DNA from: Mytilus galloprovincialis
Taxonomy: Eukaryota > Mollusca > Bivalvia > Mytilida > Mytilidae
Direction of reading: 5' to 3'
NCBI RefSeq assembly: GCF_965363235.1
Contig: NC_134849.1
Span: 55,188,122 to 55,252,121 of the forward strand
Length of the DNA stretch: 64,000 bases
The translations under genes and the position numbers were made by a program. Position 1 is the stretch's first letter. Each line of letters begins with the position of its first letter. The notes beneath the pieces are model-generated. The model did not search any database, was not told where the DNA came from, and saw nothing but the letters and a program-made list of their open reading frames with translations. Shown here one piece after another: positions 5,072-56,607 of this stretch.

Positions 5072-5159
5072 ATGAATTCACTGATGAAATTCGTTAAAGA
5101 CCTATCTTGTTTGATTGTTGGAATATCAGTTATCTTAGCCATTGGTAATTGCGATAACG
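5072..5159 (+). CDS. Receptor A exon 1 (signal peptide)
   Basis: ATG opens MNSLMKFVKD followed by a hydrophobic run (CLIVGISVILAIG), typical of a signal peptide. The donor is g|GTATGT, phase 1. The start was chosen because it is the first ATG giving a leader in frame with exon 2. An ATG five codons later is a possible alternative. Confidence 0.75.
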
Positions 5160-8100: not shown

Positions 8101-11100
8101 CATATAAAAAAACGAAAAAAACTTGCAACAATTACTCAAAGTCCAAAACCCTCTTTGACGCCGCATTTTTAGTGTAACGTCATGTTGTAAGAACATCACA
8201 AACAACGTTATTCACTTAATCAGAGACATTCTCTTATGGTCTTCATTTTTTTCGAACGCGGTCCATAGTTATACGTCGAGCAGATTTATACGCACATTTT
8301 CACTTTTTAGTTCCTTATTCTGGGAGTTACATACAAAAAAAAAACAAGTTCTTACCTATACATTATTGTCAGATTTCAATTTATTCATGTTTAGATGAAT
8401 TGTTGATTGAATTTCCTGCACATCGCGCAAACGGATTTGCTTGTCACTACAGTCCTAATTTGATTCAACGTTAAATTGCAATTGTTTATAATGTTTTGAA
8501 GCAACAATGAAACAGCAAAAATTGTAGAAAAATCAGCATGTTGATTGTGATTTAACAAAACAGCTAAATTAACAAACTTTAAAAAAAAAAAAAATAACGA
8601 AGTCTGGCAAAATTTAAGATTACATTGTATAAAAATTTGAATTTCAGATTTCAATTTAACATTTTACAATGAACGTAAAACCTGGTCGGAAGCCAAAGAC
8701 TTTTGTTTCGTGAACGGTGGGATTTTAGAGACAGATGAAACTATCATAATAAAGGATCATGATTATACGAAAGATAATGTCAAACTATGGCTTGGTGCTT
8801 ACAGTTTGATTACTCCATGGTCAGGTGTGTTTGGTAAGTCTCTTTGTAAGAAACTATTATATCAAACTGACCGAATGACCAACCTGCACGCGGCTTAAAA
8901 AAAATTTGATTAGATGCTGTAGATACTAATATGTATCAAAATACTGCCAGTTAAGTCATTTTCAGCATTTTATCTCTAAATAGTACAGTCGAATCGTGAC
9001 ATACAAAGGACAAGACCGAACCAAACCAAACAAGACAAAGCAGAACCCCTGTTAACTACTTATATGATATTTTTTATTTTTTTTTTGAAGACTCATTGAA
9101 AAATGTTCTTTTTTTTTATTGTTGTATCTTAAAATTTATAAATGATGCAACAATTTTTGTTTCTTGCTGACTATTTTGTTACATTTCTACTGCTCTGTGG
9201 ACCATGCTCTGAACAATTTTTTTTTTCTTTTTAACTCCTATATTTTAAGAAACAAAAGTACAGTGATTGATTGCAGCATGTTGTTGCATTGTATTAGTCG
9301 CTTTAGGAATCGCTATAATTCCAGATATATCATAAGTATTTGTGGTTTTATCTTACATTAGGTTGTTATTTTTGGAATGAGGATGATAGAAACAAATCAA
9401 TAGAATTTGAACTGCAGAATAAGGAAGAATGTCAGATTCGCTGTCCTAAGTCAATTTATGAGTGTTTTGCCTTCAAGGTAATTAAATCAAGTCTATGACT
9501 TGAATTTAGCTATATTTATATTTGTCTTTAGTTACCTCCTATAGGTTTAAAGAGATACGATTGGTTAAATTAATACACGTGGTGACTATGTATATTTGAT
9601 ATATGGTGTCCTAAATAAAACATATAGGGTTAGTTACCATATGGGGTAAGTAAGGAGTTACTTCCCTTTTTAAAAAAAAATGTCACAACCCTTTATAAAA
9701 AAACACGGTGTTGAGGAAAATTCTAAAAGGGTTAAACAGATGAAGAAATTGATGAAGAAAGGTTGAAATAAGTTCATAAAATATAAAGCTAACAAGTTGT
9801 TATTGTTGGCACCACGGAGTTACTTCCCTTTCAAAACAAAAACAGAATTGTAATAATATATGTTTTCACTAAAACGAGCCAAGGCTTTAACATGTTGAAA
9901 TGTGTTTAAAGAATTAAGTATATATTAGTCTAATTCGCCATTTAGTTCATCTTTAATTTTCGATGCGTGATTTTACATAATAGAATATCAAAATCATGAA
10001 AATTTGATACAATCTTCTTTTTATTACATCTCATTCGTCACAGCTCATGTTTTATTTTCTTTTAAATATTTCTTGTTCTCTGTGTTTGAAATTTATCAAC
10101 AAAGCGAAAAGAACCAAGACATGAACTATATTTAATTGAAATAAGTTATATTTATAGAATTCGTAAAAATATCACAAAAAAAGTCAACCACACACGTATA
10201 ATATGATTTCCGTGTTTAATACAAGTGTTTCTGGTAAAAAACATATCAAGAACCATATGACAAAAACACAAAATACAGAATCTTCAAGTGCACAAGCGAC
10301 TAACATGACTGTGCATAAATCTTCCAATGGTCATGGCAAAGGAAGTTGTATATCCTTATACAACAAAAAAAGTACAGAATAGAGAATACTCACAGTTACT
10401 GAAGGTAGTTCAAAGTCATTGACAATTAATTACAATATATGTGATGCAAGCACTTACTTAAATGTTAGTTATTCAGTCACCATTGTAATGCAACTATATA
10501 TTAAAAAAACAAGAATGTGCCAATAGTACACATGCTCCATCCACACCATCGCTTTTTATGTTCAGTGGACTGTGAAATTGGGGTACAAACTGTAATTTGA
10601 CCTTAAGATTTAAAAGATCATACCATAGGGAACAAGTTTCAAGTTGGTTGGATTTCAACTACATCAAAAACTACCTCGAACAAAATCGTTAACGAAAAAC
10701 ATTAACCTGAAGCGGGACAGACAGACGGACAAACGAACGGACGAACGAACGGACGCAGAGACCAGAAAAAATTATGCCATAAATAGGACAAAAAGTGTTG
10801 AAGTTATATGGGACACAATCGAATAATAAATGATTATCATGATATTTGAGTTTGTTTTTTTTTTGCAACAGGTATTAAATAAAAGATTTTCCTTTTAGTG
10901 TTATTGTTTTTTTTTTTTTATTATACGACGTTATCAGTTCAATTTTAAGGTTGTACCAAACACCATGACTGAAATAAATTTTGACAAAATATATTTACTT
11001 TGACCCGTTGATAAAATATGAAAATTTCTAAAAAATTGAACCACATACTTTCAGGGAAAATTTTCATTGGATATATAGCAGCTTGACAAACACTAATTTT

Positions 11101-14100
11101 GATTATATTGAGAAACTTTATATTTCCTCAACAATACAATATGATTAAAACGTTGAGCTGATTTCTGCAAAGTTATCTCCCTGTAGTGTAAGGGACTGTC
11201 ACACATAAAGGATGTTTGTTTGCTCTTCTTGTTTTTTAATTTTTGCCAGATTTTCGGAATCCTCTGATTTTATCCATTCATTGACATTAAAACAATTGTC
11301 TACTAACCTATATTTTTTTCTTCTTAAATTTTATTACTTTAACACAACAAAGCCAGATATGAAAATTTAATAAAGTTCTTGTTCTTTCTTCATAGTTTTT
11401 TTAGACCAAAAAAACGATCAGTGTTTAAAGTATGAAAAGTCTAAAGATACTCATTTCCCGCCAAATTTTCAATGGCTAATATATCAAAAACATGCACACG
11501 TACTCCTCATTTTATTCTTCTTTTTAAGTTCCTTTATTTATATACTATCATATAAGACAGTGTTTTTTAAAAACTTATTTTGAAATAGAGTAGCGAACAT
11601 CCTAAAAACTTGAACCACATACTTTCTGAGAAAATTTTTAATGGATACATGTAAATGTATATAGCATAAAACTTTACTGGGTAATCATTGTTGGAATTTC
11701 AACTGATGAATGCATCTTTACAAATTTGACACAAACACGACTGTTTTAAAAACATGAAACATTTTAGGAGAAAACCTGCTACTGTTTAAATAGTGAGAAT
11801 CTACCACAAAGTCATGATGACACATCTCCAAAGAAATGTTCGGACTCTACCGAAACTGACTACGTTTTCATATACAGGCGTAAGTTAAGTTCACATGCTC
11901 AAAATAAAAAAAAACATATGTATAATGCATAAGAAATTATAGATAAAAATATAATAACCTTATATGTTTTACTATTTCAGTTTTAAAAAGTAAAATCATA
12001 ACAATACTGAACTCCGTGGATAATTCAAAACGAAAAGTCCCTAATCAAAAGGCAAAATAAAAAGATAAAACACATCAAACGAATGGACAACAAATGTCAA
12101 ATTCCTGACTTGGTACAGGCATTTTCAAATGTAGAAAATGGTGAATTGAACCTGGTTTTATAGTCTTTTATAGCGCTAAACCTCTCACTTGTTTGATATT
12201 CGCATCACCTTCCATTATATTGACAACGATGCGTGAACAAGACAGACACTATCGGTTAAAATAAAAACCTTATATAAGAACCATAACATGATGGCGGATG
12301 TTTAAAGAACAGAGACACGTCATTTGTATCAATGGAACACACAAAGTCACACGGACAAAGCACACTAGCAAAAATGAAAGATATATATATAATACAAACA
12401 AGGTATTGACGGGATGTATAAGTACCGAGCCACGTCAAATGGATATCACCCAAAAACAGACCAAACAGTAACACTACTATTAATAAAGACAAATAATTTA
12501 ATTTTGGATGTAACGTGTCTTCTGATTGGCTGACGTTATTTTGTTATGAGCCCATAGACATAATTCAGTCATGTGACTGTGACGTCATCAACGTTTTTTC
12601 ATGGTTTTCTACGGTTTAAAATGGAATTTAGAATTAAATTATAAGAAATGACTGTAATATTTGTTCTGTCTATTCGAAACAACATAAAAAATGTGGTGCA
12701 CACTGTTAAATAACCCGCTTCGCGCGTTATTCAGTGTGCACCAAATTTTTTATGTTATTTTTTCATAGACAGAAAAAAATATTACAGTCATTCCTTAAAT
12801 AAAACAACAATATAACACGTTATTAAACTTATAAACAACGTCAGTACGCAAAATATATACACAAAGACCATCATGTATTATTTGTGAAGTTGATACGGAA
12901 TATTTATCAACACGGTCTTGGTACCTTCTGATGATTCTTTTTAGAAAAAGCTTAAAATATAGCCTTTTATCCTTTTAGCAATATAAAGTACGTTATTATT
13001 TTATTTTATTTTTGTTTTCTTTTTTTTTTTTTTTTATCTTTTTTTAAAATGATTTACGCTATATCAATGTAAAACTATTTAGTTTTACCATTCTTATATA
13101 AACCAACAGGATATGTTTTCTATAGGTTCGCATTGTTGAGTAAAGCAAAATTTTATAGCTATTTAACTGGTGGTTGTACTGCTATTGAATATCTAGACAG
13201 TTTGAAGATATAATACTAATTTCTTTTTTCCCAATTTGTAGAAATCCAAGAAGGACCAGATATTGATTCAGATACTTATAACTGTATTGCAGTTGAGTGT
13301 AAGAATCTCGGCCGCGACCGCGTTTTTACTGCTGAAAACTGTGATTCCATGTATAATGTGCTATGTGGTAATGTTGGTTGATGCATGGTTAAATTGTATG
13401 CAGTTTTGATAATATTATGATAAAATAAAGATATGTAAACAAAATAGGTATATAAAAACATGTCACAGTTAAATACTGCTAAACTCAAGTAGTTCTAGAG
13501 AAACATAGTAATATTAAAAATCGCAATACAGATACGAATACTTAATCTCCTTTTGAAAATAACAAAAGGGAACAAAACCCTGAGAAACACAAAATATGAA
13601 AGCTAGAGATTAAACGACAAGGAGTCCCTTCACAACAATGATAAATATAGGCGATCTAAAACAGAAACTATATAGTGTTTCTCGTCTTATAACAGTCTAT
13701 AGTAAAAGAGGGACGAAAGATACCAGAGGGACAGTCAAACTCATAAATCGAAAATAAACTAACATCACCATGGCTGAAAGTAAACATGAAAAAGACAAAC
13801 AAACAAACAATAGTACATATGACACAACATAGAAAACTAAAGAATAAGCAACACGAACCCAAACAAAAAAGGGGTGATATCAGGTGCTCCAGAAAGGTAA
13901 GAAGATCCTGCTCCACATTAGGCACCTGTCGTGTTGCTTATGTGATAACAAATCCGATAAATAGTCTAATTCGATAGGCCACATCCATGAAAGGGAAGGA
14001 GATTGAAGTAACGACGTAAGGAACATATCCGATATCATTTGTGAAACGGTAATTAAAATATGCTTTAAATTAACATTGCTAATAAGCTTAGCTTGTATTT

Positions 14101-17100
14101 CAGATAACACGGAAAATAGATCCACTATAAACGCTTTCAACGCAACTAAATTCTGTGAGGATGAAGGCAGTTTCGTGAGATGGGATCCATCGTTGTCATG
14201 TACAAATTCTGAAGAAAGTTTTGACCAGAAACACTGGACCAGTATTAAGCGTTCAAAACAAATGTTCCTTTTAACAGCTTCTGGTAAATGAAGAGTAGGA
14301 TTGTTTTCATTTGTAAATGCATTTGTCTTTTCAAAGACCGACACATATTTTCCAGGATTAAAGCGAAGCACTTAATCAAAACGTATACCAAAATCAGATC
14401 AAAAAAGTAAACAGATGAAGCACATTCAACTATCATGTATAAATCCTCAATCCTGTAACGTGATTTCCGTGTTTGCGATATCAACATTTTACACGTATTA
14501 CTATAGATATTATCATTTGATAAAGTTATGAAATAAAATGTCTACATTTATATATTGGCAAGGTCTGATTATATTTTTTGGCAAATGAAACGTTAAGAAA
14601 ACAAAGCACTGTCATAGCTTTATAGAGCCTCGGTGATCTGGTACGCGTGTTAGTCTTGAGTCTGGAGATAGGTTCGCACTCAGGCCAGGTCAAACCAAAG
14701 GCTTGAAATCTTAAAACTATTATTTGCTGTTTTCCCGCTAAACTCGCGGCATATACCAAAAAGGCGGACTAATCCAAAAGGGAATTAAGTTGAAGACAAA
14801 AAAAACAAAAACAAACGAAAACTAAACACAATTTAAAAAAAGTTTAAAACAGCAAACATGTACCATTTTGTATAGGGCATTATAAAGAAATGATTGCTCC
14901 CATTGAAGATCATTCACTCTGCAAAACGTTTTAATTGTAATTGTACTGAATGCGTTTGAAAAAATACGACTGGTCTGTCAGCATACTCTCAATCAGACGA
15001 GTATGATATTGCCATTTCAAAATGTTTTAAATTCAGTTATTCCGTTCACTATACTACTACGGTCGCAAATACTAGACATGAAAAGGGTTATTCCTCCCGT
15101 CCATGACTTTAATAGGATAATACTCAGTCTGTTATTTTGTTTTCATTTGGTAGGGGGATGTTAGGGTCAGAGTAGCTTTTTGTAGATTATTCCCACTTTC
15201 TTGAGTTTTTCGTTTCGTATGGTCAGATATTGAAAAGTCCTTGTCAAAGGTAAGCACAATATTATATACTTTCAGATGAGAACGTAACATTGAAGCCGTT
15301 ACAGTGTATAGGACTTGATACGTATGGAGACATGTATACGTTTGTTGAACCATCAGTAGTTAACTGCACTGAGTTAAGGCCATTTTATTGTAGATATAGT
15401 ACGTAGAGGTTTTTGATAAATGAAAGAAAATGCTTAGTTTAAAAGTTGACAACTAAACATTTGACAGTAAATTATACAAACCTGCACAACTGACGCCCAT
15501 TGCATTGCCAATATTTGATATAATAGTTATATTAGGCAAACGACTAAGGTTCTCATGATAGTTTTCAAAATTCAAATTCAATTTGGTACATAATGCTGCG
15601 TTCACACGTGATTCGAATTAGATTTGCATTAACTAATTCCAATTACTAGTTTAATTCGCATTCGAAACGTTATACGTTCGAACGTAAATTCTAATTTGAA
15701 TTGCACAGCGCGTCAAATTCGCTTTACTGTCCTAACGACATTAACTTTTGAATCGCAAAATTCGAATTACAAAATTAGAAAGTGACCACACCACAGTTAA
15801 ATTCGAATTAATGCGAATTAACTCATTCGTAAAACGCATTTCTAATGCGAATTAGATATAATGACAATCAGCCAATTCGAATTGAAAAAAGAGGAGTGTG
15901 AACGCGATTAGTCAATTCGATTCGCATTCGATTCGACTCGAATTAAATGAACGTTTGAACGAGGCATAATAATACCGAATTCTAAGGAAATTAAAAGTCC
16001 CAGGTCAAACGGCAACACCAAAATCTCAAACTCGTCAAAAACATAAAATTGTAAATTTGCTGTATTAAAAGGAAAAACTGTTGTTGGACAGACGGTGTTG
16101 CTACATTGTAATTGACAGTTTATCAGATGTTTTAACGCAATTTGAAACGTGCTTGGATTCTTGGTCCGGGTTATACATATCTTAAATGATCGCCAATGTG
16201 TTCTATATTCCACGTACTGTTTAAAATATTTGTTTCTGGATACTCCGTCTACTAGTGAAAAGCAACACGCAAAAAAAGGTTTACGCATTTTGGTATTAAA
16301 GATTAATACATATGACCATGTACGAAGTTGCAAACTATAAATTTTCCTTTTTTTACACATGAAACTTTATTTTCAAATATGGAATTTAAAAATGACAATA
16401 AAGATGAATGTTATTAATATGTTAATGCACTCGCTTTGAACTTGAATGGTCTATACATTGTATATAGAAATAAGAAGATGTGGTGTGAGTGCCAATGAGT
16501 CAACATCATATCCAAGTCACACTACTGTAACCCTTTGTTTACTTAGATTTACTGTATGTCGTTATTTATATACAGGGTTACGCCCACTGATAAACAGCGC
16601 ATCCAATGAATCACAAGGACACAATGTTACCATGGAAATGCCTGACAACAGTCACATTACTCCTTACCTCATACCAGGTACTATCTAAGAATAGAATAAC
16701 ACATTCATAATTTTTTATGCTCCACCTACGATAGTAGCGGGGCATTATGTATTCTGGTCTGTGCGTCCGTTCGTCCGTTCGTCCGTCCGTCCGTTCGTTC
16801 GTCCGTCTGTTCGTTCTTCCCGCTTCAGGTTAAAGTTGTTGGTCAAGGTAGTTTTTGATGAAGCTACAGTCCAATCAACTTGAAACTTAGTTCACATGTT
16901 CCTTATGATATGATCTTTCTATCTAATTTTACAGCCAAATTAGACTTTTGACCTGAACATAGAAAATGGAAGTTCCAGTTTCAGGTTAAAGTTTTTGGTC
17001 AAGGTAGTTTTTGATGAAGTTGAAGTCCAATCAACATGAAACTTAGTACACATGTTCCCTATGGTAAAGTATGATCTTTATAATTTAAATGCCAAATTAG

Positions 17101-18637: not shown

Positions 18638-18704
18638 GCATACTGTTATGTGAAATTTCGTTGTATGCTACATTATTTTATGCATAGATCTTTATATAGA
18701 TTAG

Positions 18705-23860: not shown

Positions 23861-23921
23861 ATGGAATTATTTAAACTTACAGTGTATATCGTGATATATT
23901 TTCTTCTGCATATATACCCAG
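23861..23921 (+). CDS. Receptor B exon 1 (signal peptide)
   Basis: ATGG start after AAAA; it encodes MELFKLTVYIVIYFLLHIYP; donor g|GTAAGT, phase 1. A TTTTCAG acceptor at 23829-23835 suggests the exon begins with spliced 5' leader. An upstream ATG at 23849 opens a tiny frame that ends after eight codons, overlapping the true start. Confidence 0.8.
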
Positions 23922-36063: not shown

Positions 36064-36250
36064 ATTAAAATTGAGAATGGAAATTGGGAGTATGTCAAAG
36101 AGACAACAACCCGACCGAAGAGAAGACAACAGCCAAAGGCCACCAATGGGTCGTCAACGCAGTGAAAAAATCTCGCATCCGGAGGTGGTCTTCAGCTGGC
36201 CCCTAAACAAAATTGTGTACTGTTCAGTGAAAATGGACGTCACACTTTAA
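36064..36250 (+). repeat. Family R2 fragment
   Basis: Contains AAATTGAGAATGGAAATTGG and GGTCTTCAGCTGGCCCCTAA. Confidence 0.5.
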
Positions 36251-42673: not shown

Positions 42674-42725
42674 ATGGTTCCTATGACACTATTGATTATT
42701 TTCATGTTATTGAACAGCCATCAAG
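42674..42725 (+). CDS. Receptor C exon 1 (signal peptide)
   Basis: ATGG start; it encodes MVPMTLLIIFMLLNSHQ; donor g|GTAAGA, phase 1. A TTTTTTCAG acceptor at 42631-42639 suggests 34 bp of spliced leader before the ATG. Confidence 0.8.
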
Positions 42726-45700
42726 GTAAGACACCTATATTTAAGAGATAACTGTATTGTATTTGATGCTTTAAGGACGTTCATCGGTAGTTTTACTGTC
42801 GCAAATTTAGTTTACCTGGCGACGCAATTCAAAAATTCAAAATGTCGGCTTCCTTAGTTACAGGCAAGGAGATAGAGAACTTTACGCTATCTGTCATCTA
42901 ATCAGAACCATTGATACAAAATAATTGCATTAGAATTTAATTTAGTGGCATAAAACACCAATCAATCAATTAATCAGTGAATGGGAATGATAGAAAATTT
43001 GTGCTTGAATTTAAATGAACCAAAATAACTGGTAGAATTTTCCGAGGAAAGTGCATTAGTGTTTATAGGGTTTCTCTGACTATTTCATTCCGTGATTCTA
43101 TACATGTTCTTAATGTGCTGATGAAGTTGGTTAATATACTTCGTACGGCTTTCTGTTAAAATTTATACAATTACAAGTTGGGTTTTTTCTTCTACAAAAA
43201 GCCGTAGCAAGAATATTGACCGATATTTAGAATATTTTTTTAAATCGCGTAATAACTAATTTTAAAGGAAACCTATATAATAAACACTTTGAAATTCTTT
43301 AATTTTCGTTTACCTTATTTTCTTTGCAGTTGCATTAGAGACCGTTATTGTAAGAACTTATTACAATACAGAATTATCATGGACAGATGCTAAAGATTTC
43401 TGCTTTAACCAGAGCAGTATTCTAGAAGTTAACCATACAGATACCATGACAAGTTTTGAAAACGAGACAGCACAAATATGGACTGGATCTTATACCACGT
43501 GGTCTAACTGGGCTTTGATCTGGGGTACGTTTACCGTTTACAATAAGAGGATCTGGTCGGGGTACTCAATTTCTCTATTCAACAGTGGCATAGCTAGGTA
43601 ATTTTTACGTGTAAGCCAAAACCTCAGCGAGGGGTCTGAGGGTTCAGGTCATTGCACCTGCTGGTAGTTGGTTCGAAGTCCCGTAAGCTAATAGATTATC
43701 GAGAATGAGATACCATTCCCTTTATTAAAAATTCTAATCAATAAAATATACTTTAAAAAGAATCTAAATGGTTTATTTCTTATGTTTAGTGTATTCATTG
43801 TGTTAATTTGGAATCTTATGGTCATTGGTTTTACAGAAAATGTCCTACATGTAACTGGTTACTTTATGTTTGAAAGGAGCCATGGGGTAAATGCCGTTAT
43901 TGAACATGAAATAATTAATGTTCGGAGATGATCAGACGCAGTATTAAAATGCGCGAAGGTTCTGTAGAACCCTGGTTCTCGCCTTTGATTGCTTACCTAA
44001 AAAAATTAATGAATTTATCTGTCTTTTACAGGATTTAAAAAAAAATCAAATATTTTCTTCAGATGTTTTTCTTGTTCTGGAATATCGACTTCTGTCTTAC
44101 TTTCACGACAATCTATTGAGGTTAATCATGTAAACTTGCGGAAAAATAAGTATGTCTATAAGTATAATGATAAAAGAATGGAAGACAAACATTTCTTTCA
44201 AAATTTTAATTCAGACATTAATCAGGAAAAAAACTTCTTCCAAAGTATCACACAATTCAATCAAGGTTTGACAAAGTACATTGTAATTGGTTAAAAAAAT
44301 AAACCAAGACTGTATCTACTTGTTCAAATTTTTTTTCTTTAATTCTATAAATATGGGGGAATTAAATATATAATTTCATCATTATGCCCTAGATACATTT
44401 TTGGTCATAAACAGTTTCTGTCCAACTTCCATACGAAGGTTTCACAAAGTTATTGATATTAAAAAAAAAAACAATTTTAACCAAACACTGAACCATTAAA
44501 GTGACGCTGCCGACGAAATTTATGATCACTATGTCTGGCTTTCGCGACATACGAAAATGTCACAGGCTCGACAAAAATGCAAACCACATATCGAATTTCA
44601 GAAGATAATAAATTGCTTTAAACAAAAGGGAAGTGGGTAAAATTATCAGTAAATTCAAACTAGTTACTTCAGACTTTGAAAGACAATAAACAAATCTATA
44701 TAATTATAAGTAAATTCAAACTAGTAAATTCAGACTTTGAAAGACAATGAACAAATCTATATAATATGATATCATACCATTTGGTTGAAAAGTAAATTTC
44801 GTCGCAATTACAAGTAATTGAAAAAAGAAATATAAGGCTGATGTACTTGTAATATTCAGTTCTTTATATTTTATTTAGTAAGATAACAGTAATTTTTTTA
44901 TCAAAATATTTTTTTCATCAAAATTCAAGTGGACGCCCGGGCGTTTTGACGTAAACGTAGCTACGCGCCTGAAATTTCGTAGATTTGTTTGGTAATTTCT
45001 CTAGTATTCTTTATTACTTTTGCCCATTATTCCCATTTCTTCATATTTTTAGTCAATTCGTCTGTTGTTTAAATCCATAATTATTCTCTCCCATATAAAA
45101 CCCACTCTTATAGTATCGATGCACAATCGAAGTTGCCAAACTAATACATGTTGTTTCTTAAAAATTGCAACATAAACATCAACTAAAATAATTTGAACTA
45201 AGAATAAAACAACACATTGGTAGACACTATAATTTAAGGAAAACAATTTAGATAGAGTGGAACTTGAGCAGGCTATTTTAACACAGCTGGTACTGTTTCA
45301 ATACTTGTTGGTTTTGTTTTCCTTTTGCAAATGGAATTATCTCCTTGTTAGGAATACATAGAACAACCAGCCTTCAAATACCAAAACATATTTTCCAGAA
45401 AGGTTTGCACTGATAAGAAGCACTGTTTTTTTTTTATACCCCCCTTTATGAGCATTATGTCTTCTGGTCTGTGTGTCCGTTTGTCCATTCGTGTGTCCGT
45501 CAGTCCCTTCGTCCGTCTGTCCCGCTTCAGGTTAAAGTTTTTGGTCGAGGTAGTCTTTGATGAAGTTAATGTCCAATCAACTTGAAACTTAGTAAACATG
45601 ATCCCTATTATATAATCTTTCTAAGCTTAATGCCAAATTAGAGATTTTACCCTATTTTCATAGTCCACTGTACATAAACAATGATAGTGCGGATGGGGCA

Positions 45701-48700
45701 TCCGTGTACTTGGGACACATTCTTGTTTACATTTAAATAAGTATAGAACTGTTCTATTAGATTTTGTCATTAATATTGCAAAAATAAACAATCTAATAAA
45801 AACAGATCTACGCGCAAGCTTATAAAAATGAGCGAGTGCACATATTTATTTTTTTAATTGCTTGTTCCTTAATTACAATGTTCTCATTTTTTTTATGGCA
45901 TGAATGTATCTGTGGGTATCGGAAAATAGTAAAATCACAAAAATACTGAATTCCGAGGAAAATTCAAAACGAAAAATCCCCCAATCAACTGACAAAATCA
46001 AAACCTCAAACACATCAAACGAATGGACAACAACTGTCACATTCCTTAATTTATTAGAGTTGAGGTTAATGCGTCAAACAAACAGACACCCATCTACTTA
46101 GATTTTGAGACTCGAAAATCGATTTACATCTGAAGGTCAACATGACTGAAACCGTCAACTATAAATAGCTAGTTAAATTAACCATTTATAGTCAAACTGT
46201 CAAATAATCATATCTATAACAGCCACGAAAGATAAACAGGATGTTGAAACTGACCATGAATTAATGGTTAATTACACGGGGTAATTCAAATTCATTACCA
46301 CGTTTTTGATTTTGCCATGCACTGAGTTAAAAACCAATATTATTAGTCTATTTTCACTTAACGAAGACCAGTTCTATAGTCGCGTTACAGATTAATACAA
46401 AAACACACAGAAACGGAAATAGAATAATTTTGATATTGTAGAGGTAGAGGAAAAAATATATGTTTTGCAAAACTTCTATGGTTACCGACCAACTTGTCTG
46501 TCCGTTTTTGTTTTGTTTCATAAAAAGCTGACGAAACCATAAAAGTACACTGTCATTATTTCATTCTTATATAGAAATGAGAACAATCATGTGGTATGAG
46601 TGTCAATGACAGTGGCGGATCTAGAAATTTTCATAAGTGGGGGCCTGTTGACTGCCTAAGAGAGGGGTCCAGCTCCGGTCATGCCTCAGTGATTCCCTAT
46701 ATAAGCAAACAAATTTTTCCCAGAAAAGGGGGGTTCCAGGCCCCTTTGCCCTACCCCCCCCCCCCCCCCTAATCCGCCTCTGGAGACAGCTCGCTAAGAT
46801 ATAATTAGCACAGACAAGAAAGCTCTGTCACAGCCAAATAACAATATTTTAACTTTAAGAAGACCAGTTCTGCATTTACATTACAGATTAAACTAAAACG
46901 CGAAATAAATGAAAAACTAGAATAATCTAGTTGATGTGAGGGAAGCAGAAAAATACACCACAAGCACGGGAATACATTCTAGTGTATCCACACTGCACGA
47001 GCAACAAACACTACAATATTAAAACCAGAAGATGTCTACAAAGAAGTTAATTAAATACGGAGTCAACCAAAAGCAAATTTTGAAAATACTCATATATTGT
47101 TTACAATATGGCTTATTCTAATGCAATTATTTTGTAACAATTGTTCTGATTGGATGACAGCAAGCGTAAAAATTTCTCTATCTCCTTGTCTGTAACTAAG
47201 GGAGCCGACATTTTGAATTTCGGAATGTTTTGACATGTTATTTCTGCAAAAATAAACACAAAACTCACTTGTTGCGCAACTCTCAACAAGAGACCAAATG
47301 ACACAGAAGTTTACAACTATAGGTCACCGGCACGGTCTTCAAGAATGAGCAAAGCCCATACCGCATAGTCAGCTATAAGAGTCCCCGAAATGACAATGCA
47401 AAACAATTCAAACGAGAAAACGAACAGCCTTATTTATGTACAAATGGATGAACGATAAACAAATATGCTATACAAGAACAAATGACAACGATTGAATTAC
47501 AGACTCCTGGCTTGGGACAGGCACATACATACCGAATGTGACGGGGTTTAACATGTTAGCGGGATTCCAATCCTACTCCATACCTGGGACAGTGGTATAC
47601 CAGTACAACATAAGAACGAACTATAAAAATCAGTTGAAAAAGGCTTCAAAACTTATTAGATGGATACAAATTGGTTGATTTTGTATTTGTAGGCTGTTAT
47701 ATGTCTCCACAGACAGTATCTACTACGTTTGAGGACATTAACGACGGAAAGTATGACTGTCAAAAGTACTGTCAATCGTCACAATACTTTGCTTATGAGG
47801 TTTGTTGTGTATTACATGTATTAAAGATACATTTATTCTTATGAAATCTTGATGTAACAAATGCTTTTATTGACTAGAATATACCGTAAAATCCACAACT
47901 GACTTTTGACATATGTTTTTATTGGCTAGAATATTCCGTAAACTCCTTAACTGCCTTAATTATGTGACCATATGCTATGGAGTATAACGAAACAATTCGA
48001 GTATAATATATATTTTAATAATTTGTCTTCAATTTCCACATAAAATAAATTTTGTGTTAAAAGAAAATAAATATTGGTAGATAAAAGGATTTAAAATTAT
48101 TTTTGTAAATATACGATTTATGTTAAAATCTTATATTTTTACGTGTTGTATTTACAGGGTGCTGCGTGTTACTGTCTAGATGTAACCGGTTCTCCTGTCT
48201 CATATTCCAATTGTCTAACATCGAATCGAACACCGAGTTATGTGATTGTATATAAACGTTAGTATCTTATTTGTATTTTATATTGGGCAATTCCATTCAT
48301 GTCTCTCTCTTGGTTAGGTTTTGTGAAATGGGTGGGGATAGAGGAGGGTTCCAATTCAAGTTATTTATAGGGGGTATATAATATGTTCTTGTAAATTTCT
48401 ATCATTTTTTTGTTCATGGTTATTGAAGCAAGTGTGATAATTCAACATCGTTTTCTCTCTATTTTCTCTAAAAAGGTTCGCACTGTATGTAGTTCAAGTT
48501 TTAATGATAACACATTTGTTGCCTTAACCTGCAGAAAGAACCCACATATCTATTTTATAAACGATGTCAATAAAGGTTTCAGAATATGAGGTGACTTGTG
48601 GTTTCCTCTTTATTGATCTATTTTGATATATTTGTATAGAAAATATTACTGGAGTACAGAGGTCATTAGATGACACACCAGAAGACCAATTAAAATGTAT

Positions 48701-51700
48701 GTCAGCTCAGTGTCAGGACGGAGAAATCATTCTCAGATCAGAAAACTGCAACAGTTATTATGAAGGAATATGTGGTAAACAATACCTTTAGGAATGCAAG
48801 TGTACATAGTTACTCATAATAGAATAAATTGAAAATGGAAATGAATTTGTCAAAGGGATAACAACCCGACCAACGTGCAGAAAACAGCTGAAGGCCACCA
48901 AAGTGTTTTCAATACAGCTAAAAAATCCTGCATCCTCAACTGGCCCCTTTACAAAGATATGATATAAATAATAGGTGGTGTGAGCTATGCATCGATGAGC
49001 AGGTACAAATGTACCCGACAATAGAAAACAATCGGTAGATTTTACATGTCAACACACAGTTTCAACGACAGCCAAGTGTCTATTCAATATGTTAAGCATA
49101 GTACTAAATCTACACGAGTCCAGGGTATATCGCCTTGCTTCAGTAAATTCTAACATTTGTAGTTAAAGAAAACCGTGTAAATTGTAAGGCTTATATTACG
49201 AAGAAGTACTTAATCAAGCTAAATTGCATGTGTCTATCTGTATTGCAGTCGAAACTTAACAACACAATGCATTTGTATGTTCCTTAAATCATATTCATAA
49301 CTTATGACTAAGCTGTCACTAGTGAAGCAATATACAAACAAAAAATTGTGGTATGAATGCCAATGCGAAAATTGCAAACCAGATAATAATCGTTGTGTTC
49401 ACCGCACGCTCTTCAACAATGAGAAAAAATAACGTTTACCCAACTATAAAAGGGACCTTCATGAAAAATGTGATACTAGAAGTAAACCTGAATCAACGAC
49501 AACCACTGAGTTACAGGTTTCTGTTTATGGGCAAGAACATAAAAAATATGGAAGGGTTAAACATGTTAATAACACTAAACCGTACCCTTCAGTAACCTTG
49601 GATAATCATGATAGTTGTGTAACAGCATAACACACATTATAAAAACAAACTGTAAAATGTTGCAGAAATGGCGTATACTAGGACCTGAATAGATCGATAT
49701 GAAAGAACAGGTTACACTTTCGAATGTTCATCCTCTGTGTTCATGTGAGTTTAGAAGGTTTTCGTAACCAGTAGTTGTCCGTATATTGTATTTGAAAAAA
49801 TTGTTTTAGCTTATGTAACCTATAATTGTTTTTTTCAAGAATCTGGATTTAATAATGGAAGCAATACAACACAACAATCCGCAACTACTTTATGTGACAA
49901 CGCTGATTCATTTTTGCAGTGGTACAATAACAAATCTTTTTGTGACACTGGAAAAACAAACCAACTATGGACCAGTGCAACACGTGTCATTCATACAGAC
50001 GATCTAACAATGTATGGTTAGTAAGAACTTTTACTAAAATGTCTTTTAATTATTTGTGTCATTTTTTTCCTGCCATGTTGACATAAACCTTCCTTCTTTT
50101 TTTAAGTATACTAGATCATCATGCCCGAGAAATTGCGATACAATTTGGCAAGTGTTGACACACGGACTTTTTACATTTCGCCGGCAGTACATCGACTGAT
50201 CTTATGCTTAAGACATGGATCGATAATGGTCTTCAAATTCGGATATTTTTCCACTGACAAACTTGATTATTTTGTGTTTCAAACACAAATTTATGGTTTC
50301 AGAGGAGTTGCGGCAAAATGAAATCCTTTTGTAGTATAGATTCAAATACGCCTACAGTATTTCTCTTCTATTACAACGATATCCTCTAAGCCCTAAATAA
50401 TGAAATTAAAATGTATTTTGATTTAATATGTGGGTAAATTAGGTATCCCATTAAAGTATATCCCACAACTGCATATACCTATATTAATGCATGATTCGTT
50501 TTTTTTTCAGATCAAGCATCATCTATTAATCCAATGATGTGTCAGTACATGGACATCCGGAATTCATCAACAGCGTTAGGAGACTGCACAGACAGACGGA
50601 CATTTATATGTAGATTGGGTAAGTTATGCATTTGACCATATTATTCTAAATCTTTAATTGTCCTCTGAAATAATATAAAAAAATAGATTATCTTCAGTTG
50701 AAAATGGTTTCGTAAGAGTTATTTATTTACCTTTGGGCGCCATATTGAAGGACTCTATGAATATATTCCTTAAAAAAATCGATGAAATTTAACAGGTTAT
50801 TGTGGAGGCCATATCTTTGAAATAGTTGGATTCTGAACAGTTATCTGCTCTTTGGTTGGGATGCTGCGCATTTACCACAACGGCGACTAAATATGAATTA
50901 TATTCATTAGATGGACGCAACCGGTACACAATAATACACTGGCTATTGTGCTATGCAATTATATCATACTTAATAAGGGGCTTACTGTACATTGATATAT
51001 TAACTAAGATAATTATTAGATTGAGTACAAGTATTTTGTAGATTTGTTCTGACCTAGAACATACATTTCGCAAACAATTTATGCAGTTTTCAAGGTAACA
51101 ATTACCTGACGTGCATCAAGTGCACTTATTGTTCGAAACCGGTAACAAACAGGCATCGTGTAAATGCATCTGATAAAAACCATAAGCAGTGTACTGTGGA
51201 ACAAATTTTTTTCGTGGGTACCAATTTTCGTGGTTTGAGGAAGACTTACATATTCATGGATATTTAATATCGTGATTTTGGAAAAGTCTACACTCTTTCG
51301 TTTAGAAAATTTGTAATTCGTTGAATATTTGAATTCGTGCATCTCCTGTACCCACGAAATCCAGGAAAATTAGTATCCAACGAATATAAATAAAATGAAT
51401 CCACAGTATTAGCAATTGTAGTAATCAAATGACAAAATCAAAGTAAACAGCTCTATTCATATGTGAATAATTTATTTTTTGTAGAGAAAATTGTCTTACC
51501 AAGTGAAACGGTTGAAAGTAATAATATTATAGGCAAGTACTATAGATATGTGTGTTTATCTACTGCACATGATGACGATTTACGAATCTTTTATTCATAT
51601 ATAACACATGCATGAATCGGATTTTACATAAATATGAGTGATGTGAGACATATAAAAATACCACGGTTCAAATCAGCACAAATTAATCTACAGATCAACC

Positions 51701-54700
51701 AGGAGAGCATATAAATAAAGGCAACAGTAGTATACCGCTGTTCAAAACTCGTAAATCTATGAACAAAAAAAACAAAATCGGGGTAACAAACCAAAACTGA
51801 GGGAAACGCATTAAATATCAGAGGAGAACAACATCAAAATGTAACACACACAGCAACGGACTAAGCATTAGACAAAATCCGATGAGAATAACCAATACAG
51901 CATGAAAACCAAATACATGAATTTGGGATAGAAAAGTACCGTGACACGTCTTATAGTAATGTGAATTCACACTCAAATATAGGAGAAAACAAACAACACA
52001 ACGGAAACACAACGTAAAAATGTTACACACACAGAAACGAACTATGATATAACAATGGCCATTTTCCTGACTTAGTACAGGACATTTTTAAAGAAAAAAA
52101 TGGTGGGTTGAACCTGGTTTTGTGGCATGCCAAACCTCGCACTTTAATGGCATTGTTAAATATAACATTAAAATGACAACATAATAGTACAGGACTACAA
52201 TACAAATAAAAAGGAGAACGTATTAGGCAAAGAAACACATGAAAAATAGATAACAAAAGACATCAGGTTTAAAATTCAATACGTCAAAAACGCGCCTCGT
52301 CCACACAAGACTTACCAGTGACGCCCACATATAAAAGTTCGAGAGTAAAAAAAGGTACAAAGTTGTACAGCTCTGAGGATCAAAAGTTAAAAAAGGTTGT
52401 TCCAAATACGGCTAGGGTTTTCTGCTTGTGATAATCACATCCTTATTATTTAGAACAATTTATGCTATTGCAAACAGTAAATTTTATCAAATGAATATAA
52501 AAGATTTACATGATAAAACTTACGTCTTAACTAATTACAGAAAAAAAACCTCGAATACATAATACATTGAAGACCAACACAGAAAATAGATACACCCGAC
52601 TTAGCGAATATAAACATGGCGAAATTCTAAGACTAACAAAGAATATAAACATGGCGAATTTCTAAGACTTACAAAGATCATTAAAGTAGGCCAATAAACA
52701 ACCACTGACTAGGTTCCATGTTGAATTATCGTGTGTTCAGACATTTCATTTGTATTATCTCACTCTGCCTTCGAGTTTTAATCACGATCAATGGACAATT
52801 CAAACAACATACAGTTACAGAAAATAAAACGCAAATCAACACAGCATACTATATTATAACTGTTAGATAAAAAAACTAAACTCCAGTAAATATTAAACGT
52901 AACATATAGCATGTTCGTAATCACTAAAAGAAGGCTAAACAATCAACCTGCTCACGTGAACCTGCTGATACGACATGCTCTAATTATACATAAAGAATAA
53001 GGAAAGAAAATTTAACATGAATTAAAAGCATTAAATGGAAGAACAAAATTGTTTCTTCATGTTATTTGATAGAATACATAACTAAATTAAAAAACAAGTA
53101 TGACCTTCATTGGTCGCTGTCTGAGAGATTAGTTTCGATATTGTATCGTTATTTGAGTCACTTCTTACATAAAATTTAATCAATAATTTTATATAATATA
53201 ATAGAAAAAACATTGTTTAGTTGCTTAGGGAGTTTTTGTTAAATAATTTCCTAAGAGTTCGGTATCCTCTTTATTTTATTTTTTACAGGTATATCAATGT
53301 ATGGACTGATGGGATTAATTTCACTGGTGATTGTCCTTATAATTATTATCGTTGGCATCAAAACAAGGTAAAACTATCTTGAACTGTAATATAATCTGTA
53401 TTGCAAAATTCCACCCGTAAGGATCAGGCAATACAAACATCAGCTATACAATTAAATACAATGCAATACAATGCATTACAATAAATTGAATTTGATGCGA
53501 CTGTCATACAAGTGAGAGGTTTAGCGCTATAAAACCAGGTTCAATCCACCATTTTCTACATTCGAAAAGGCCTTTACTAACTAAGTCAGTTTGATGTGTT
53601 TTAGCCTTTGATTTTTCCATTTGATTAGGGACTTTCCGTTTTGAATTTTTTTTCGGAGTTCAGCATTTTAATTTTGTGATTTTACTTTTTTCAGGAATAT
53701 GGCCGTTGTTATCCATTCGTTTGATGTGTTTTATCATTTTATTTTGCCATTTGGTTAGGGACTTTCCGTTTTAAATTTTCTTCGGGTCTAGTATTTTTGT
53801 AATATTACTTTTTTCTAACCAATGAAAACTTAGTCACACCATAATACCACCAATCAAACCGTAATTTGTTAAGTAATTATTTCAAGATAATGAGATTATT
53901 GTTTAAGACTAATTGCCTCGTAGCGTGATTCGAAACAATTAAACTTGATACGTACTGTTTTTCGTCTTTACCAGTTTTTTTATAATTAACTCTGATAATG
54001 ATTTGTTTTTGTAATTATATCATGTTCTACATTATCTTTATAAAAAATCTTATTTGAACTTTGATAAGGCACAGAAAAATACCACAATTTGTTATTATGA
54101 CAGGAACATAAGTTATAAGAGTCCGTATTTTAGCTCACCTGACCCAAAGACTCAATTTTCGCAATTTGTTTGTTTTCCATTATTGTCTGTTATTGTGTTA
54201 GCTACAAATGACAGGGGAAAACTTTATACAGATAAAAATAATTAGCAAAGCAAGAAGTTAGTATTGTCGAAATTTTGACTACTTCTTATTGGAGTAATGC
54301 CCTTTAACAACAATTTCACATTGTGTTTGTGCCTTTTATATAAAAAAAACCAAAAAAAAACCCAAAACAATAGATATATTAAGTTAGTAACTCTAGTGTG
54401 CAAAATTGAGGCACATATAAAAATCTACAAAAACGTTAATATTGTCGAAATTGTCATAAGACGCCTTATTAGAGTTAAACTATAATAAATAGGACACTTA
54501 AAAAGCAAAACATGCATTGTTGTTTCAATGACACCCATACCACATCTTCTAATATCTATATAAGTAGAACATGACTGAAATCGTCCATAACTCCTTATTG
54601 TAATTATTGCCCTTTCATGAAGAGTATTACCAATGTTTACCGTATTTAATGGCCAAAATTCGTCAGTAGACTTCTTATTGGAGCTACATGTATGGCTCTT

Positions 54701-56607
54701 AGTATTGATTTTTGTTAATTTACTTTCTTTTCATATGGTAGTAATTGGGATATATCTACTTTTGTTTGTTTTTTCTTTCGACTATTTAGCTTACTTTTTG
54801 TGATTGGTATCTGATTTATTCAATATTTTAAAATCTTTGGTGACAACCAAAGGAACACACTTAGATCAGTTTAATAAGTATATTTCGTTGTATTGTTTGT
54901 TTAAGTAATCATGGTAGTAGCAACAAGCGGAAAAAGGAGGATGTGAAAGAGCATGCTGCTGTTGTAAACCAGCGTTCATATTCTGTACAAATTACCGAAT
55001 TGCAATCCCCATTGGAAGACATAATAGAAGACAGTGAAAGTATCAATGAACAATCAAGTGATGGGAGAAACAGCGGAAACGGAAGTGTGTTGGAAGTGCA
55101 GACATCTTTTAAAAACGATAAATTAAATAAACGTCTTACAACTTTCAAACGAGGCAGTCATCGATCAAAACCAGAAATCGGAAACATTACTACTGGAAAA
55201 GCGGAAGAAACAAGTGATAATGATGACTCAATAAACAGTATTTGTCATACTAAAACACAAACGGAACAATCAGTACTTAACTCGAACACTATCAATATTG
55301 AATCACATCAAATGGAGCATATTCCCTGTATCAACAGTAGATCTGAACACGAAGACAATTATCATCCTACTAAGGACTTCAAAGAGCAGTATCAACCTAA
55401 CAAGCCTACAATAAACATAAATCAGGATAGTAAAACAGAAACAGAAAACAAGAAATGTCCCGAATTGGCTTTACAAGTTGATTTTGTAGATACTAAAGAC
55501 ACGAAGAACTTTCCAATTCCTGCTCGTGATATCATTTATGAATTATCTGGTAATACGGATCCCAACGATGTGCAAAATTCAACTAGAAGAGAAAGTTACT
55601 TTGCAAATGATTTAACTTGTGATTATGATGACATCAACGATCCAGAAGATGCGTCACATACTTCTCGAAGACAAATCGACTTTTCAATATGTTCAAATGA
55701 GTTAACCAGTGATTATGATGATATTGAGGAACATGAAGATGCATCACATGCTTCCCGAAGACAAAACAAATATATTCATGAGTTCACCTGTGATTATGAT
55801 GATATCAATGATTCTGAAGATGTGACAGCTTCATCCCGAAGACAACTTGACTTTACAAATGAATTTCCTGGGGGTGATTACGATGATATTGATACTTCAG
55901 AAGAAATGTCAACTCTTTTCCGACCTTCGCATGTCTTCACAAGTGAGCAAATCCCAGATTACGATGAAATTGATGACAGAAAAGACGCAGTAACTCCTAA
56001 TGTGGAGAAACATTTATTTACTAAGAATCTATCGTTAGATGACATATATGATGGCATAGAAGAAATTACGACTGACGGTGAAAATGCGTCTAAGTTTACT
56101 TTAACCGCGCAGAAAGACCGAAAATCGTCTATTGGTCAGTTTGATGACTATGATGAAATTGAAGATTCCAGGGATGCAATGTATACAACAACAGAGCCAT
56201 ACATTGGCATGTCACACAGGAGCAGTGCGACAATAGAACAATACATGGACATGTCTCACGGGATCCGTGCGACACAACTATCTGACAGTGAAGATAGCAG
56301 TTCATTGAATACAAGTTCAAATAACCCGTCGCCAACCAAGCTAACCAATGAACCCATATACGCCATTTCAACGAAAAAATCGATAAATAGCAAATCAAAA
56401 GAATCTGACGTAGAACCTAAAACATTATCGAACAGTGAAAATATCACTTTAACGAACACATATTCAACTAACCCGTCGTCAAGCATAACCAATGAACCAA
56501 TATACGCTATTTCAACGAAAAAATCAATCAAAATCAAGTCCAAAGAACCTGATTTAGTAGCTGCACCTGTTTATGCAATTTCATCGAAAAAGTCAAGTAA
56601 AATGTAA
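42674..56607 (+). CDS. Receptor C: CTLD/WSC type I receptor with repeat-bearing tyrosine tail
   Basis: Ten coding exons: 42674-42725, 43330-43524, 47693-47799, 48158-48257, 48640-48774, 49840-50016, 50511-50618, 51485-51532, 53289-53367 and 54918-56607. Phases match A and B. The frame is about 896 residues. All introns are GT-AG except intron 8, which has a GC donor. Order: signal peptide 1-17; CTLD1 N-half 18-82; WSC-like module 83-151; CTLD1 C-half 152-196; CTLD2 197-291; short stalk 292-307; transmembrane about 308-330; tail 334-896. The tail holds a 27-30 residue repeat with DYDDI/DYDEI (55617-56170), then PYIGM and QYMDM (PI3-kinase-type YxxM), then three YAIS(T/S)KKS motifs at the end. 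Nine tyrosines are in YxxI/M form. A signalling role is inferred; the ligand is unknown. Confidence 0.87.
42827..42939 (+). repeat. Inverted-pair repeat, left copy (intron 1 of receptor C)
   Basis: AATGTCGGCTTCCTTAGTTA, GGAGATAGAGAA and ACAAAATAATTGCATTAGAA match 47113-47222 in reverse complement over about 110 bp with few differences. Confidence 0.7.
43330..43524 (+). CDS. Receptor C exon 2 (CTLD1 N-half)
   Basis: Acceptor CTTTGCAG, donor g|GTACGT, phase 1-1. It encodes LSWTDAKDFCFNQSSILE and IWTGSYTTWSNWALIW. It is flanked by inverted repeat copies in introns 1 and 2. Confidence 0.87.
43590..43700 (+). repeat. Possible decayed tRNA-derived SINE piece
   Basis: Contains a B-box-like GGTTCGAAGTCCCG with no credible A box or acceptor stem. 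Confidence 0.2.
44641..44763 (+). repeat. Two-copy tandem repeat, period about 61 bp
   Basis: AGTAAATTCAAACTAG…ACAAATCTATATAAT occurs twice in a row with few differences. Confidence 0.65.
45430..45730 (+). mobile_element. Family R3 repeat
   Basis: GAGCATTATGTCTTCTGGTC, the GTCCGT-type run, CCCGCTTCAGGTTAAAGTTT and the end TGTACTTGGGACACATTCTT. Confidence 0.6.
45935..46060 (+). repeat. Family R7 fragment, plus
   Basis: ATACTGAATTCCGAGGAAAA and GAATGGACAACAACTGTCAC are R7 landmarks. Confidence 0.45.
46612..46781. mobile_element. GGCGGAT-ended MITE nested in a family R1 head
   Basis: CAGTGGCGGATCTAG on the left faces AATCCGCCTCTG on the right. The flanks GTGTCAATGA and GAGACAGCTCG restore the R1 head. 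A C run lies near the right end. The ends resemble hAT-type elements. Confidence 0.55.
47113..47222 (-). repeat. Inverted-pair repeat, right copy (intron 2 of receptor C)
   Basis: Reverse-complement partner of 42827-42939. The two copies enclose exon 2 of receptor C. Confidence 0.7.
47275..47671 (+). mobile_element. Family R1 repeat abutting receptor C exon 3
   Basis: Runs from CAACTCTCAACAAGAGACCA through CCCATACCGCATAGTCAGCT and GGGACAGGCACATACATACC to CTTATTAGATGGATACAAAT, stopping about 20 bp before the exon 3 acceptor site. Confidence 0.65.
47693..47799 (+). CDS. Receptor C exon 3 (WSC-like, first half)
   Basis: Acceptor ATTTGTAG, donor GAG|GTTTGT, phase 1-0. It encodes GCYMSPQTVSTTFED and YDCQKYCQSSQYFAYE. 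A family R1 copy ends about 20 bp before it. Confidence 0.85.
48158..48257 (+). CDS. Receptor C exon 4 (WSC-like, second half)
   Basis: Acceptor TTTACAG, donor c|GTTAGT, phase 0-1. It encodes GAACYCLDVTGS, SNC and YVIVYK. Confidence 0.85.
48640..48774 (+). CDS. Receptor C exon 5 (CTLD1 C-half)
   Basis: Acceptor TTGTATAG, donor g|GTAAAC, phase 1-1. It encodes KCMSAQCQDGEIILRSENC and YYEGICG. Confidence 0.87.
48825..48960 (+). repeat. Family R2 fragment
   Basis: AATTGAAAATGGAAATGAAT, AACAACCCGACCAACG and CTCAACTGGCCCCT. Confidence 0.45.
49335..49660 (+). repeat. Family R1 repeat, degenerate
   Basis: TGTGGTATGAATGCCAATGC, GTTCACCGCACGCTCTTCAA, GGGTTAAACATGTTAATAAC and TATAAAAACAAACTGTAAAA follow the R1 order. 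Confidence 0.5.
49840..50016 (+). CDS. Receptor C exon 6 (CTLD2 N-half)
   Basis: Acceptor TTTTTCAAG, donor g|GTTAGT, phase 1-1. It encodes TTLCDNADSFLQWYNNKSFC and NQLWTSATRV. The AAG acceptor is non-preferred, but phase and homology support it. Confidence 0.82.
50150..50345 (+). repeat. Diverged dispersed repeat shared with 3770-4015
   Basis: ACATGGATCGATAATGGTCT and GGAGTTGCGGCAAAATGAAA match the upstream copy. It lies in intron 6 of receptor C. Confidence 0.45.
50511..50618 (+). CDS. Receptor C exon 7 (CTLD2 C-half)
   Basis: Acceptor TTTTTTTCAG, donor g|GTAAGT, phase 1-1. It encodes MMCQYMDIRNSS, GDC and DRRTFICRL. It is the same length as exon 7 of B. Confidence 0.87.
51192..51408. mobile_element. 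TA-flanked MITE in intron 7 of receptor C
   Basis: TACTGTGGA and TCCACAGTA are inverted ends, with TA at both outer edges as in Tc1/mariner-type elements. The interior has facing TCGTGGGTACC and GTACCCACGA segments. Confidence 0.6.
51485..51532 (+). CDS. Receptor C exon 8 (short stalk, GC donor)
   Basis: Acceptor TTTTTTGTAG, phase 1-1. It encodes EKIVLPSETVESNNII. The donor reads ATAG|GCAAGT. The nearby GT would break the phase to the next exon, so a GC-AG intron is preferred. Confidence 0.7.
   Translation, partial: RKLSYQVKRLKVIIL
51533..51534 (+). other. Non-canonical GC 5' splice site
   Basis: The context AG|GCAAGT is the classic strong GC-donor consensus. The corresponding introns of A and B use GT (g|GTACTA and g|GTAACC). 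Confidence 0.65.
51735..52250 (+). repeat. Dispersed repeat with R7-like end
   Basis: AAATCGGGGTAACAAACCAA, CAAAATCCGATGAGAATAAC and GTGGGTTGAACCTGGTTTTG. The last part is shared with R7. No coding frame is seen. Confidence 0.4.
52262..52420 (+). repeat. Family R4 fragment
   Basis: CGTCCACACAAGACTTACCA, AGTGACGCCC and TTCCAAATACGGCTAGGGTT. Confidence 0.45.
52606..52675 (+). repeat. Two-copy tandem repeat, period 35 bp
   Basis: GAATATAAACATGGCGAA..TTCTAAGACT(A/T)ACAAA occurs twice in a row. Confidence 0.65.
53289..53367 (+). CDS. Receptor C exon 9 (transmembrane)
   Basis: Acceptor TTTTACAG, donor ag|GTAAAA, phase 1-2. It encodes MYGLMGLISLVIVLIIIIVG followed by IKT. Confidence 0.87.
53490..53825 (-). 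repeat. Two adjacent family R7 fragments, minus
   Basis: GCGACTGTCATACAAGTGAG to TTTCGGAGTTCAGCATTTTA, then a second block GAATATGGCCGTTGTTATCC to CTTCGGGTCTAGTATTTTTG. Confidence 0.5.
54918..56607 (+). CDS. Receptor C exon 10 (tyrosine-rich cytoplasmic tail)
   Basis: Phase 2; stop TAA at 56605-56607. The acceptor is ambiguous: TAGTAG gives starts at 54918 or 54921, and TTTAAG gives 54906; all are in frame. It begins SNKRKKEDVK. About 220 Ser/Asn-rich residues come first. Then repeats at 55617-56000 carry DYDDI with SRRQ spacers, then IYDGI, DYDEI, PYIGM and QYMDM, and finally a 48-residue-period duplication around EPIYAISTKKS (56343 and 56487) plus VYAISSKKSS at the end. Confidence 0.87.

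Follow-up and report, generated by a model that had tools for sequence, protein, structure and literature searches.

A predicted tandem receptor family of the mussel Mytilus galloprovincialis with a WSC-like module that probably lies inside a C-type lectin-like domain

The window analysed here, a stretch of 64,000 nucleotides of Mytilus galloprovincialis DNA (C12:55188122-55252121 of the 1.38-Gb genome), contains three predicted receptor genes that follow each other on the + strand and are called A (window positions 5072-18491), B (23861-35462) and C (42674-56607). The genome has 17 matches to myticin, a peptide family of mussels, which bears out its origin from a mussel. In the original prediction, these were three same-strand genes with ten coding exons each and common exon phases, which encode a locally duplicated family with the order CTLD-WSC-CTLD (CTLD, C-type lectin-like domain) and a tyrosine tail. 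The gene plan was borne out when the genes were rebuilt exon by exon, and the overall interpretation is partly supported, as single-pass receptors with a CTLD, a WSC-like module and a tyrosine-bearing tail were found again, but the WSC did not hold up as a separate middle domain. The order should probably be corrected to N-terminal half of CTLD1, WSC-like module, C-terminal half of CTLD1 and CTLD2, which places the WSC-like module inside CTLD1.

The three genes and their exons

Genes A, B and C were rebuilt from paralogous open reading frames and splice sites, and their ten coding exons have identical phases across all three (from exon 1 to exon 10: 0-1, 1-1, 1-0, 0-1, 1-1, 1-1, 1-1, 1-1, 1-2 and 2-end), with AG/GT borders on exons 2-9. 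Six ectodomain exons are matched between B and C, with E-values of 1.5e-24 and 2.7e-21 for the N- and C-terminal halves of CTLD1 (N-half and C-half in the following), 6.5e-18 and 6.9e-13 for those of CTLD2, and 3e-8 and 0.003 for the two WSC halves. For gene A, exons 2 (8.5e-12) and 5 (0.001) are the only ones that match B or C with an E-value of 0.01 or lower, and the others were assigned from their position, their phase and the pattern of their cysteines; seven exons of A are found again in gene D, an upstream neighbor outside the window. As gene predictions, the three genes with the ten-exon plan are confirmed to be real.

Exon 1 encodes the predicted signal peptide (5072..5159 in A, 23861..23921 in B and 42674..42725 in C), and the starts were called from the ATG, hydrophobicity, donor and phase fit, which in A means an ATG, a hydrophobic stretch and a GTATGT donor in phase 1. 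The N-half of CTLD1 with the C1 cysteine and the W-x-G motif is exon 2 (8648..8833, 24381..24575 and 43330..43524), which is matched among all three genes. It is followed by the first half of the WSC-like module on exon 3 (9362..9477, 25160..25260 and 47693..47799), which for A has matches in loci D and E, and by the second half on exon 4 (11768..11879, where it carries the CYC motif, 26172..26265 and 48158..48257), which for A was not found in D. Exon 5 encodes the C-half of CTLD1 with the cysteines C2, C3 and C4 and an extra one (13242..13367, 27328..27462 and 48640..48774). CTLD2 is likewise divided into an N-half on exon 6 (14104..14283, 28896..29069 and 49840..50016) and a C-half on exon 7 (15276..15398, 30037..30144 and 50511..50618); in B and C both were placed by their mutual matches and phases, and in A both have a match in D, with exon 7 ending in a GTACGT donor. 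The stalk on exon 8 (16576..16677 in A, a Thr-rich one at 31202..31270 in B and a short one at 51485..51517 in C) is uncertain in all three genes, being a splice-site and phase candidate that was the best one in A and the second-best one in B and C. Exon 9 with the transmembrane segment (17545..17611, 32627..32711 and 53289..53367) was placed by its phases and again has a match in D for gene A, and exon 10 (18119..18491, 33923..35462 and 54906..56607) contains the cytoplasmic tail.

The tails differ strongly between the genes. The short tail of A (124 residues) is found again at two upstream sites, C12:55186200 and 55150196, with stretches that are 82% and 86% identical, and when 235 residues of the B tail were searched against the genome, this piece returned itself only. 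The 513-residue tail of B is rich in acidic YxxI/L/M motifs and the 567-residue tail of C contains repeated DYDDI/E-type motifs. YxxPhi motifs occur 12 times in B and 9 times in C, where 2.8 and 3.2 are expected, and the narrower class Y[DEAT][DE][ILM], which was picked after inspecting the tails, is found 7 and 6 times against 0.10 and 0.16 expected, numbers that none of 2000 shuffles of either tail attained. Acidic pYxxI motifs suit the SH2 domains of Src-family proteins and pYxxM motifs suit PI3K. Tails of the ITAM or ITIM type (immunoreceptor tyrosine-based activation or inhibition motifs) were considered and rejected, as there is no excess over shuffles: ITAMs (YxxL/I x6-8 YxxL/I) are absent from the three tails, and ITIM-type motifs occur 0, 1 and 1 times in A, B and C, which is the shuffle level. 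Within the tail exon of gene C, a tandem DNA repeat (repeat family D9, 55586-55858) with a spacing of 90 and 81 bases multiplies the DYDDI-type motif.

B and C had been regarded as the younger pair. They are indeed the closest pair among the three genes, but with a synonymous divergence (dS) of 1.51 a young age is rejected, in particular as A and its upstream neighbor D differ by a dS of only 0.35. The nonsynonymous divergence (dN) of B and C is 0.33 and their dN/dS is 0.22, and selection acting on this pair is thereby shown at sequence level. The dN/dS ratio is 0.58 for A and D, and 0.23 for A and E over two exons. When A and D are compared by exon, dS is 1.12 in exon 5 and only 0.24 and 0.19 in exons 6 and 7, which suggests that gene D (C12:55176146-55186394, loci L031 and L032) is a mosaic or has been converted.

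CTLD1 and the WSC-like module

A domain search with Pfam found no Lectin_C in the uncut ectodomains of A, B and C and gave no result on single exons. When the two halves of CTLD1 are joined without exons 3 and 4, Lectin_C is matched from position 2 to position 106 of 107 in all three genes, with E-values of 0.038 (A), 0.0062 (B) and 0.003 (C). Control joins were negative for Lectin_C, namely the N-half alone (C and B), the C-half alone (C), the N-half with the start of the WSC-like module (C and B), and the N-half of C with a hand-made scramble, while the N-half of C joined to the C-half of its own CTLD2 gave Lectin_C at E 0.011, compared to 0.003 for the true join.

A profile of nine joined CTLD1s of the family (A, B, C, D, H, I, J, K and L) was also compared with the PDB; G with an incomplete C-half, M with a divergent one, and E and a site at 46.76 Mb, which have none, were left out of it. 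With an E-value limit of 1, 38 different PDB sequences match this profile, all of which are CTLD proteins by name except for one that is listed as TNFalpha, and 17 of the 38 matches run to position 102-103 of 103. The best match is rhodocetin beta with 23.2 bits and an E-value of 0.00066. With the same N-halves and column-shuffled C-halves, two controls gave 18 and 19 PDB matches, none of which reached the end (the furthest stopped at 68 and 93, respectively), and rhodocetin beta dropped to 14.5 and 13.5 bits. Five cysteines are invariant in all nine CTLD1s, one in the N-half and four in the C-half, and the latter would correspond to C2, C3, C4 and an extra one, whose assignment is tentative. 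The motifs EPN, QPD and WND are not present in the ectodomains of A, B and C, and the domains are therefore termed lectin-like and not canonical sugar-binding C-type lectins.

The region that follows W-x-G in a CTLD is the long-loop, ligand-binding part of the fold, and CTLDs tolerate variation in this long loop. In A, B and C, exon 2 ends 15 residues past the W of W-x-G and exon 6 of CTLD2 ends 16 residues past the matching W, both in phase 1. Because these distances and the phase agree, we think that the insert fills an intron whose counterpart in CTLD2 is empty. In fish CTLD genes, PMC514892 also describes an intron "downstream of the WIGL motif". The cassette of exons 3 and 4 comprises 228 (A), 195 (B) or 207 (C) bases, each a multiple of three between phase-1 ends. 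The profile of the CTLD2 N-half matches the corresponding half of CTLD1 in gene C (E 0.038). An odd cysteine is found in exon 6 in six of six sequences and in exon 5 in nine of nine, and these two may form an extra disulfide between CTLD1 and CTLD2.

The inserted module resembles split WSC genes in its gene structure and, in part of the family, WSC domains in its number of cysteines. Those canonical WSC genes of the same genome that are split (L005, L006) consist of two exons with a phase-0 intron just before the C-x-C, which is the place and phase of the intron between exons 3 and 4. Eight cysteines are found in the modules of loci G, H, I, J, K and L. Pfam matched WSC below its cut-off in I (E 0.0015) and in J (E 0.061, positions 3-77 of 82), and gave no match for the modules of G, H and L. 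A profile of ten family modules scored 18.4 against eight canonical WSC sequences, four of which are nearly identical, whereas the highest score among 300 column shuffles was 17.9 and reversing the profile gave 11.7. A PAN/apple domain was considered in place of WSC and was rejected, as there was no Pfam PAN match, and the C-x-C pattern and intron position fit WSC. Elsewhere in the genome, dense clusters of WSC matches lie at C3:78216801-78447864, C5:70900138-71010480, C5:82092736-82192412 and C13:67146192-67637823.

The three genes belong to a longer array, and a three-gene array is rejected because at least 20 CTLD1 N-half sites lie on the same strand. The union of the N-half searches gives 20 such sites on the + strand of C12 between 54389376 and 55231644, of which six have E-values of no better than 0.002-0.06, and CTLD2 N-half sites are interleaved with them. 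Weaker N-half sites (E 0.04-0.26) occur on C12 at 31.66, 31.74, 46.76 and 16.29 Mb and on C2 at 86.07 Mb. Thirteen sites were read, and ten of them (A, B, C, G, H, I, J, K, L and M) contain the N-half, both WSC exons and the C-half in this order, over 54.67-55.23 Mb of the array and in the dispersed locus M at C12:31.73 Mb. The site at 46.76 Mb has the N-half and both WSC exons, and its C-half was not found within the 7.5 kb read. Since WSC sequence lies between the halves at all 11 sites that have both, the nesting is likely older than the array. Between loci L and E, there is evidence of another gene similar to A, namely scattered matches at C12:55138893-55150384 to the WSC second half, the CTLD2 N-half and the A-type tail (the latter 86% identical).

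The nested arrangement and its alternatives

From the sequence data, we consider it probable that a tandem family of single-pass receptors has its 3' end in the window, and that in these receptors a WSC-like module sits in the loop of CTLD1 and is followed by a CTLD2-like unit. The ectodomain would thus consist of a CTLD with the WSC-like module placed after the W-x-G strand and before the C2 cysteine, the CTLD2-like unit and a stalk, and a transmembrane helix would lead in type I topology to a cytoplasmic tail that differs by subfamily. By this anatomy, two exons that together are in frame and of class 1-1 would have brought the WSC-like module into the intron just past W-x-G ("WIGL").

Several results weigh against this arrangement, and many of them concern the C-half. 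The single-sequence Pfam scores of CTLD1 (15.2-18.7) stay under the curated cut-off of 22.6, and none of four other family CTLD1s tried singly (D, H, I and J) gave Lectin_C. A scrambled control even exceeded the curated cut-off for the unrelated PLA2_inh (E 0.00015), and because this cysteine-rich scramble passed, single weak scores are not trusted. Only one of the 38 matches of the joined profile has an E-value below 0.001. The strongest CTLD signal comes from the N-half profile alone (a PLA2 receptor chain at E 1.2e-6), whereas the C-half profile alone finds no CTLD in the PDB; when the C-half is added, the PLA2-receptor and Ly75 chains at the top of the N-half search vanish, and tetranectin falls from 18.8 to 15.1 bits and CLEC1B from 19.7 to 14.1 bits. 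Struthiocalcin scores 18.4 bits with the true C-half and 14.0 and 18.2 bits with shuffled ones. The strong signal of exon 2 alone, its loss when exon 5 is added and the missing CTLD match of exon 5 alone favor a simpler exon order like beads on a string, in which exon 2 alone is a short degenerate CTLD1, the WSC ends with exon 5 and CTLD2 follows. However, only the true exon 5 extends matches to the end of the domain, in all 15 sequences compared three of its cysteines line up with cysteines in the C-half of CTLD2, and the split canonical WSC genes of the same genome are complete in two exons, so that we regard such a linear order as very unlikely. CTLD2 itself has no CTLD match of its own, neither with its profile in the PDB nor with Pfam, which was run on the CTLD2 of C alone and on the three uncut ectodomains. 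At the level of gene structure, the exon joins in A-C are predicted from DNA, and the exons of the upstream loci were chosen by eye among candidates that had been filtered by phase and splice sites, and in most but not all cases the top candidate was taken; the calls that are least secure concern the C-half in L (profile E 0.12), its borders in G and M, and the donor of the second WSC exon of K. Locus E stops after the first WSC exon, as only the first two of the exons looked for were found there and a search for the rest gave nothing. Finally, SH2-type tyrosine motifs had been suggested for all three tails; an excess is seen in B and C, whereas the tail of A contains three YxxPhi motifs against 1.1 expected, a number that 171 of 2000 shuffles reach.

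The identity of the insert is less firm than its position. The modules of B and C have six cysteines and that of A has seven, not eight; Pfam WSC misses the module of C alone as well as the uncut ectodomains of A-C, and no stretch of the window is in the genome-wide WSC list, for which 150 of 370 candidates were scored. A profile of the family modules finds no WSC structure in the PDB, and the profile-profile probability for WSC is low, at 3-15% (6% in the shuffle-tested comparison). Four of the eight canonical loci (L001-L004) lack an intron inside the WSC match, so that the internal intron is not universal. An unrelated small cysteine-rich loop with a convergent C-x-C could explain all this, but not readily the intron that agrees in position and phase with the split canonical genes, the eight cysteines in six family members together with the Pfam match in locus I, or a profile score that 0 of 300 shuffles attain. 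We consider such a convergence unlikely and describe the insert as WSC-like and shortened in A-C, with the WSC label being weak for the copies of the window. Another view accepts the module and takes its exon pair as an alternatively spliced cassette, whose skipping would leave an in-frame two-CTLD receptor and thus two ectodomains per gene. The cassette lengths would permit this, and in locus D, which has both halves of CTLD1 and matching transmembrane and tail exons, only the first WSC exon was found and a search for the second one gave nothing, which also speaks against a uniformly nested family. If just one exon of the pair were skipped, the reading frame would be lost, though, and the pair is kept in 10 of the 13 sites read, and a spliced cassette is in our opinion rather improbable.

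Proposed function and related proteins

If the nested arrangement is correct, the WSC-like module would be displayed at the usual ligand site of a CTLD, where it may recognize glycans of microbes or other surfaces, and the composite CTLD1/WSC head would bind the ligand. In B and C, phosphorylation of the tail tyrosines could then recruit SH2 proteins, possibly of the Src-family or PI3K type. Gene duplication and the divergence of tails and WSC-like modules may in this way have created a repertoire of recognition receptors, and the genes probably form a diversified recognition-receptor family. A more far-reaching scenario, in which a carbohydrate-binding-type module took over the CTLD loop, the head was duplicated into a repertoire of about 20 genes, the cassette possibly became splice-switched and the tails diversified independently, is put forward as tentative and somewhat doubtful. 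An immune or phagocytic role is plausible, and large diversified tandem arrays with signaling tails are typical for the recognition of variable partners. The sequence fixes neither tissue nor ligand, and a non-immune function in settlement, byssus formation, or gamete or symbiont recognition is a possibility to be taken seriously, although we do not favor it.

WSC and CTLD modules also occur together in polycystin-1 and the sea urchin REJ proteins (PKD1 family), where they are separate neighboring domains of one membrane protein. The PKD1 family proteins are very large and have 11 transmembrane segments, unlike the single-pass mussel receptors. Group V-type CTLD receptors (NKR, CLEC) and Dectin-1 combine non-canonical CTLDs with tyrosine motifs, but they are type II proteins with one CTLD and no insert; A-C share with them the non-canonical CTLD and differ by their predicted type I topology and C-terminal tail. 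Compared to the canonical WSC genes of the same genome, the modules of the window differ in their cysteine number and in sitting within a CTLD. Closest in domain content are bivalve proteins with CTLD and WSC, as the main text of PMC10140915 names WSC among the extra domains of bivalve-only CTLD proteins. The co-occurrence of WSC and CTLD in bivalve proteins has thus already been reported there, and what may be new here is the nesting of WSC in a CTLD; the main text of that paper is silent on nesting ("insert" has 0 occurrences), on the 20-site array and on the tyrosine tails of the mussel family. A literature search over titles and abstract openings of open-licence PMC papers also found no description of a WSC nested in a CTLD.

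A whole second domain in the loop of a CTLD would be an unusual case of exon-shuffled domain nesting, and a donor-type module, the host intron and an empty sister domain would all be visible within one gene. It would then be an invertebrate receptor family in which variation arose by grafting a domain into the binding loop, and it is a concrete candidate for a family with variable recognition in animals that lack antibodies. Because Pfam misses CTLD1 entirely on intact ectodomains, surveys of bivalve lectins may count too few receptors of this kind. Apart from the genes, the introns and intergenic regions of the window contain interspersed repeat families whose copies are about 60-88% alike, at 16765-17077, 30540-30783 and 45467-45741, and at 19097-19430, 26963-27304 and 36063-36211.

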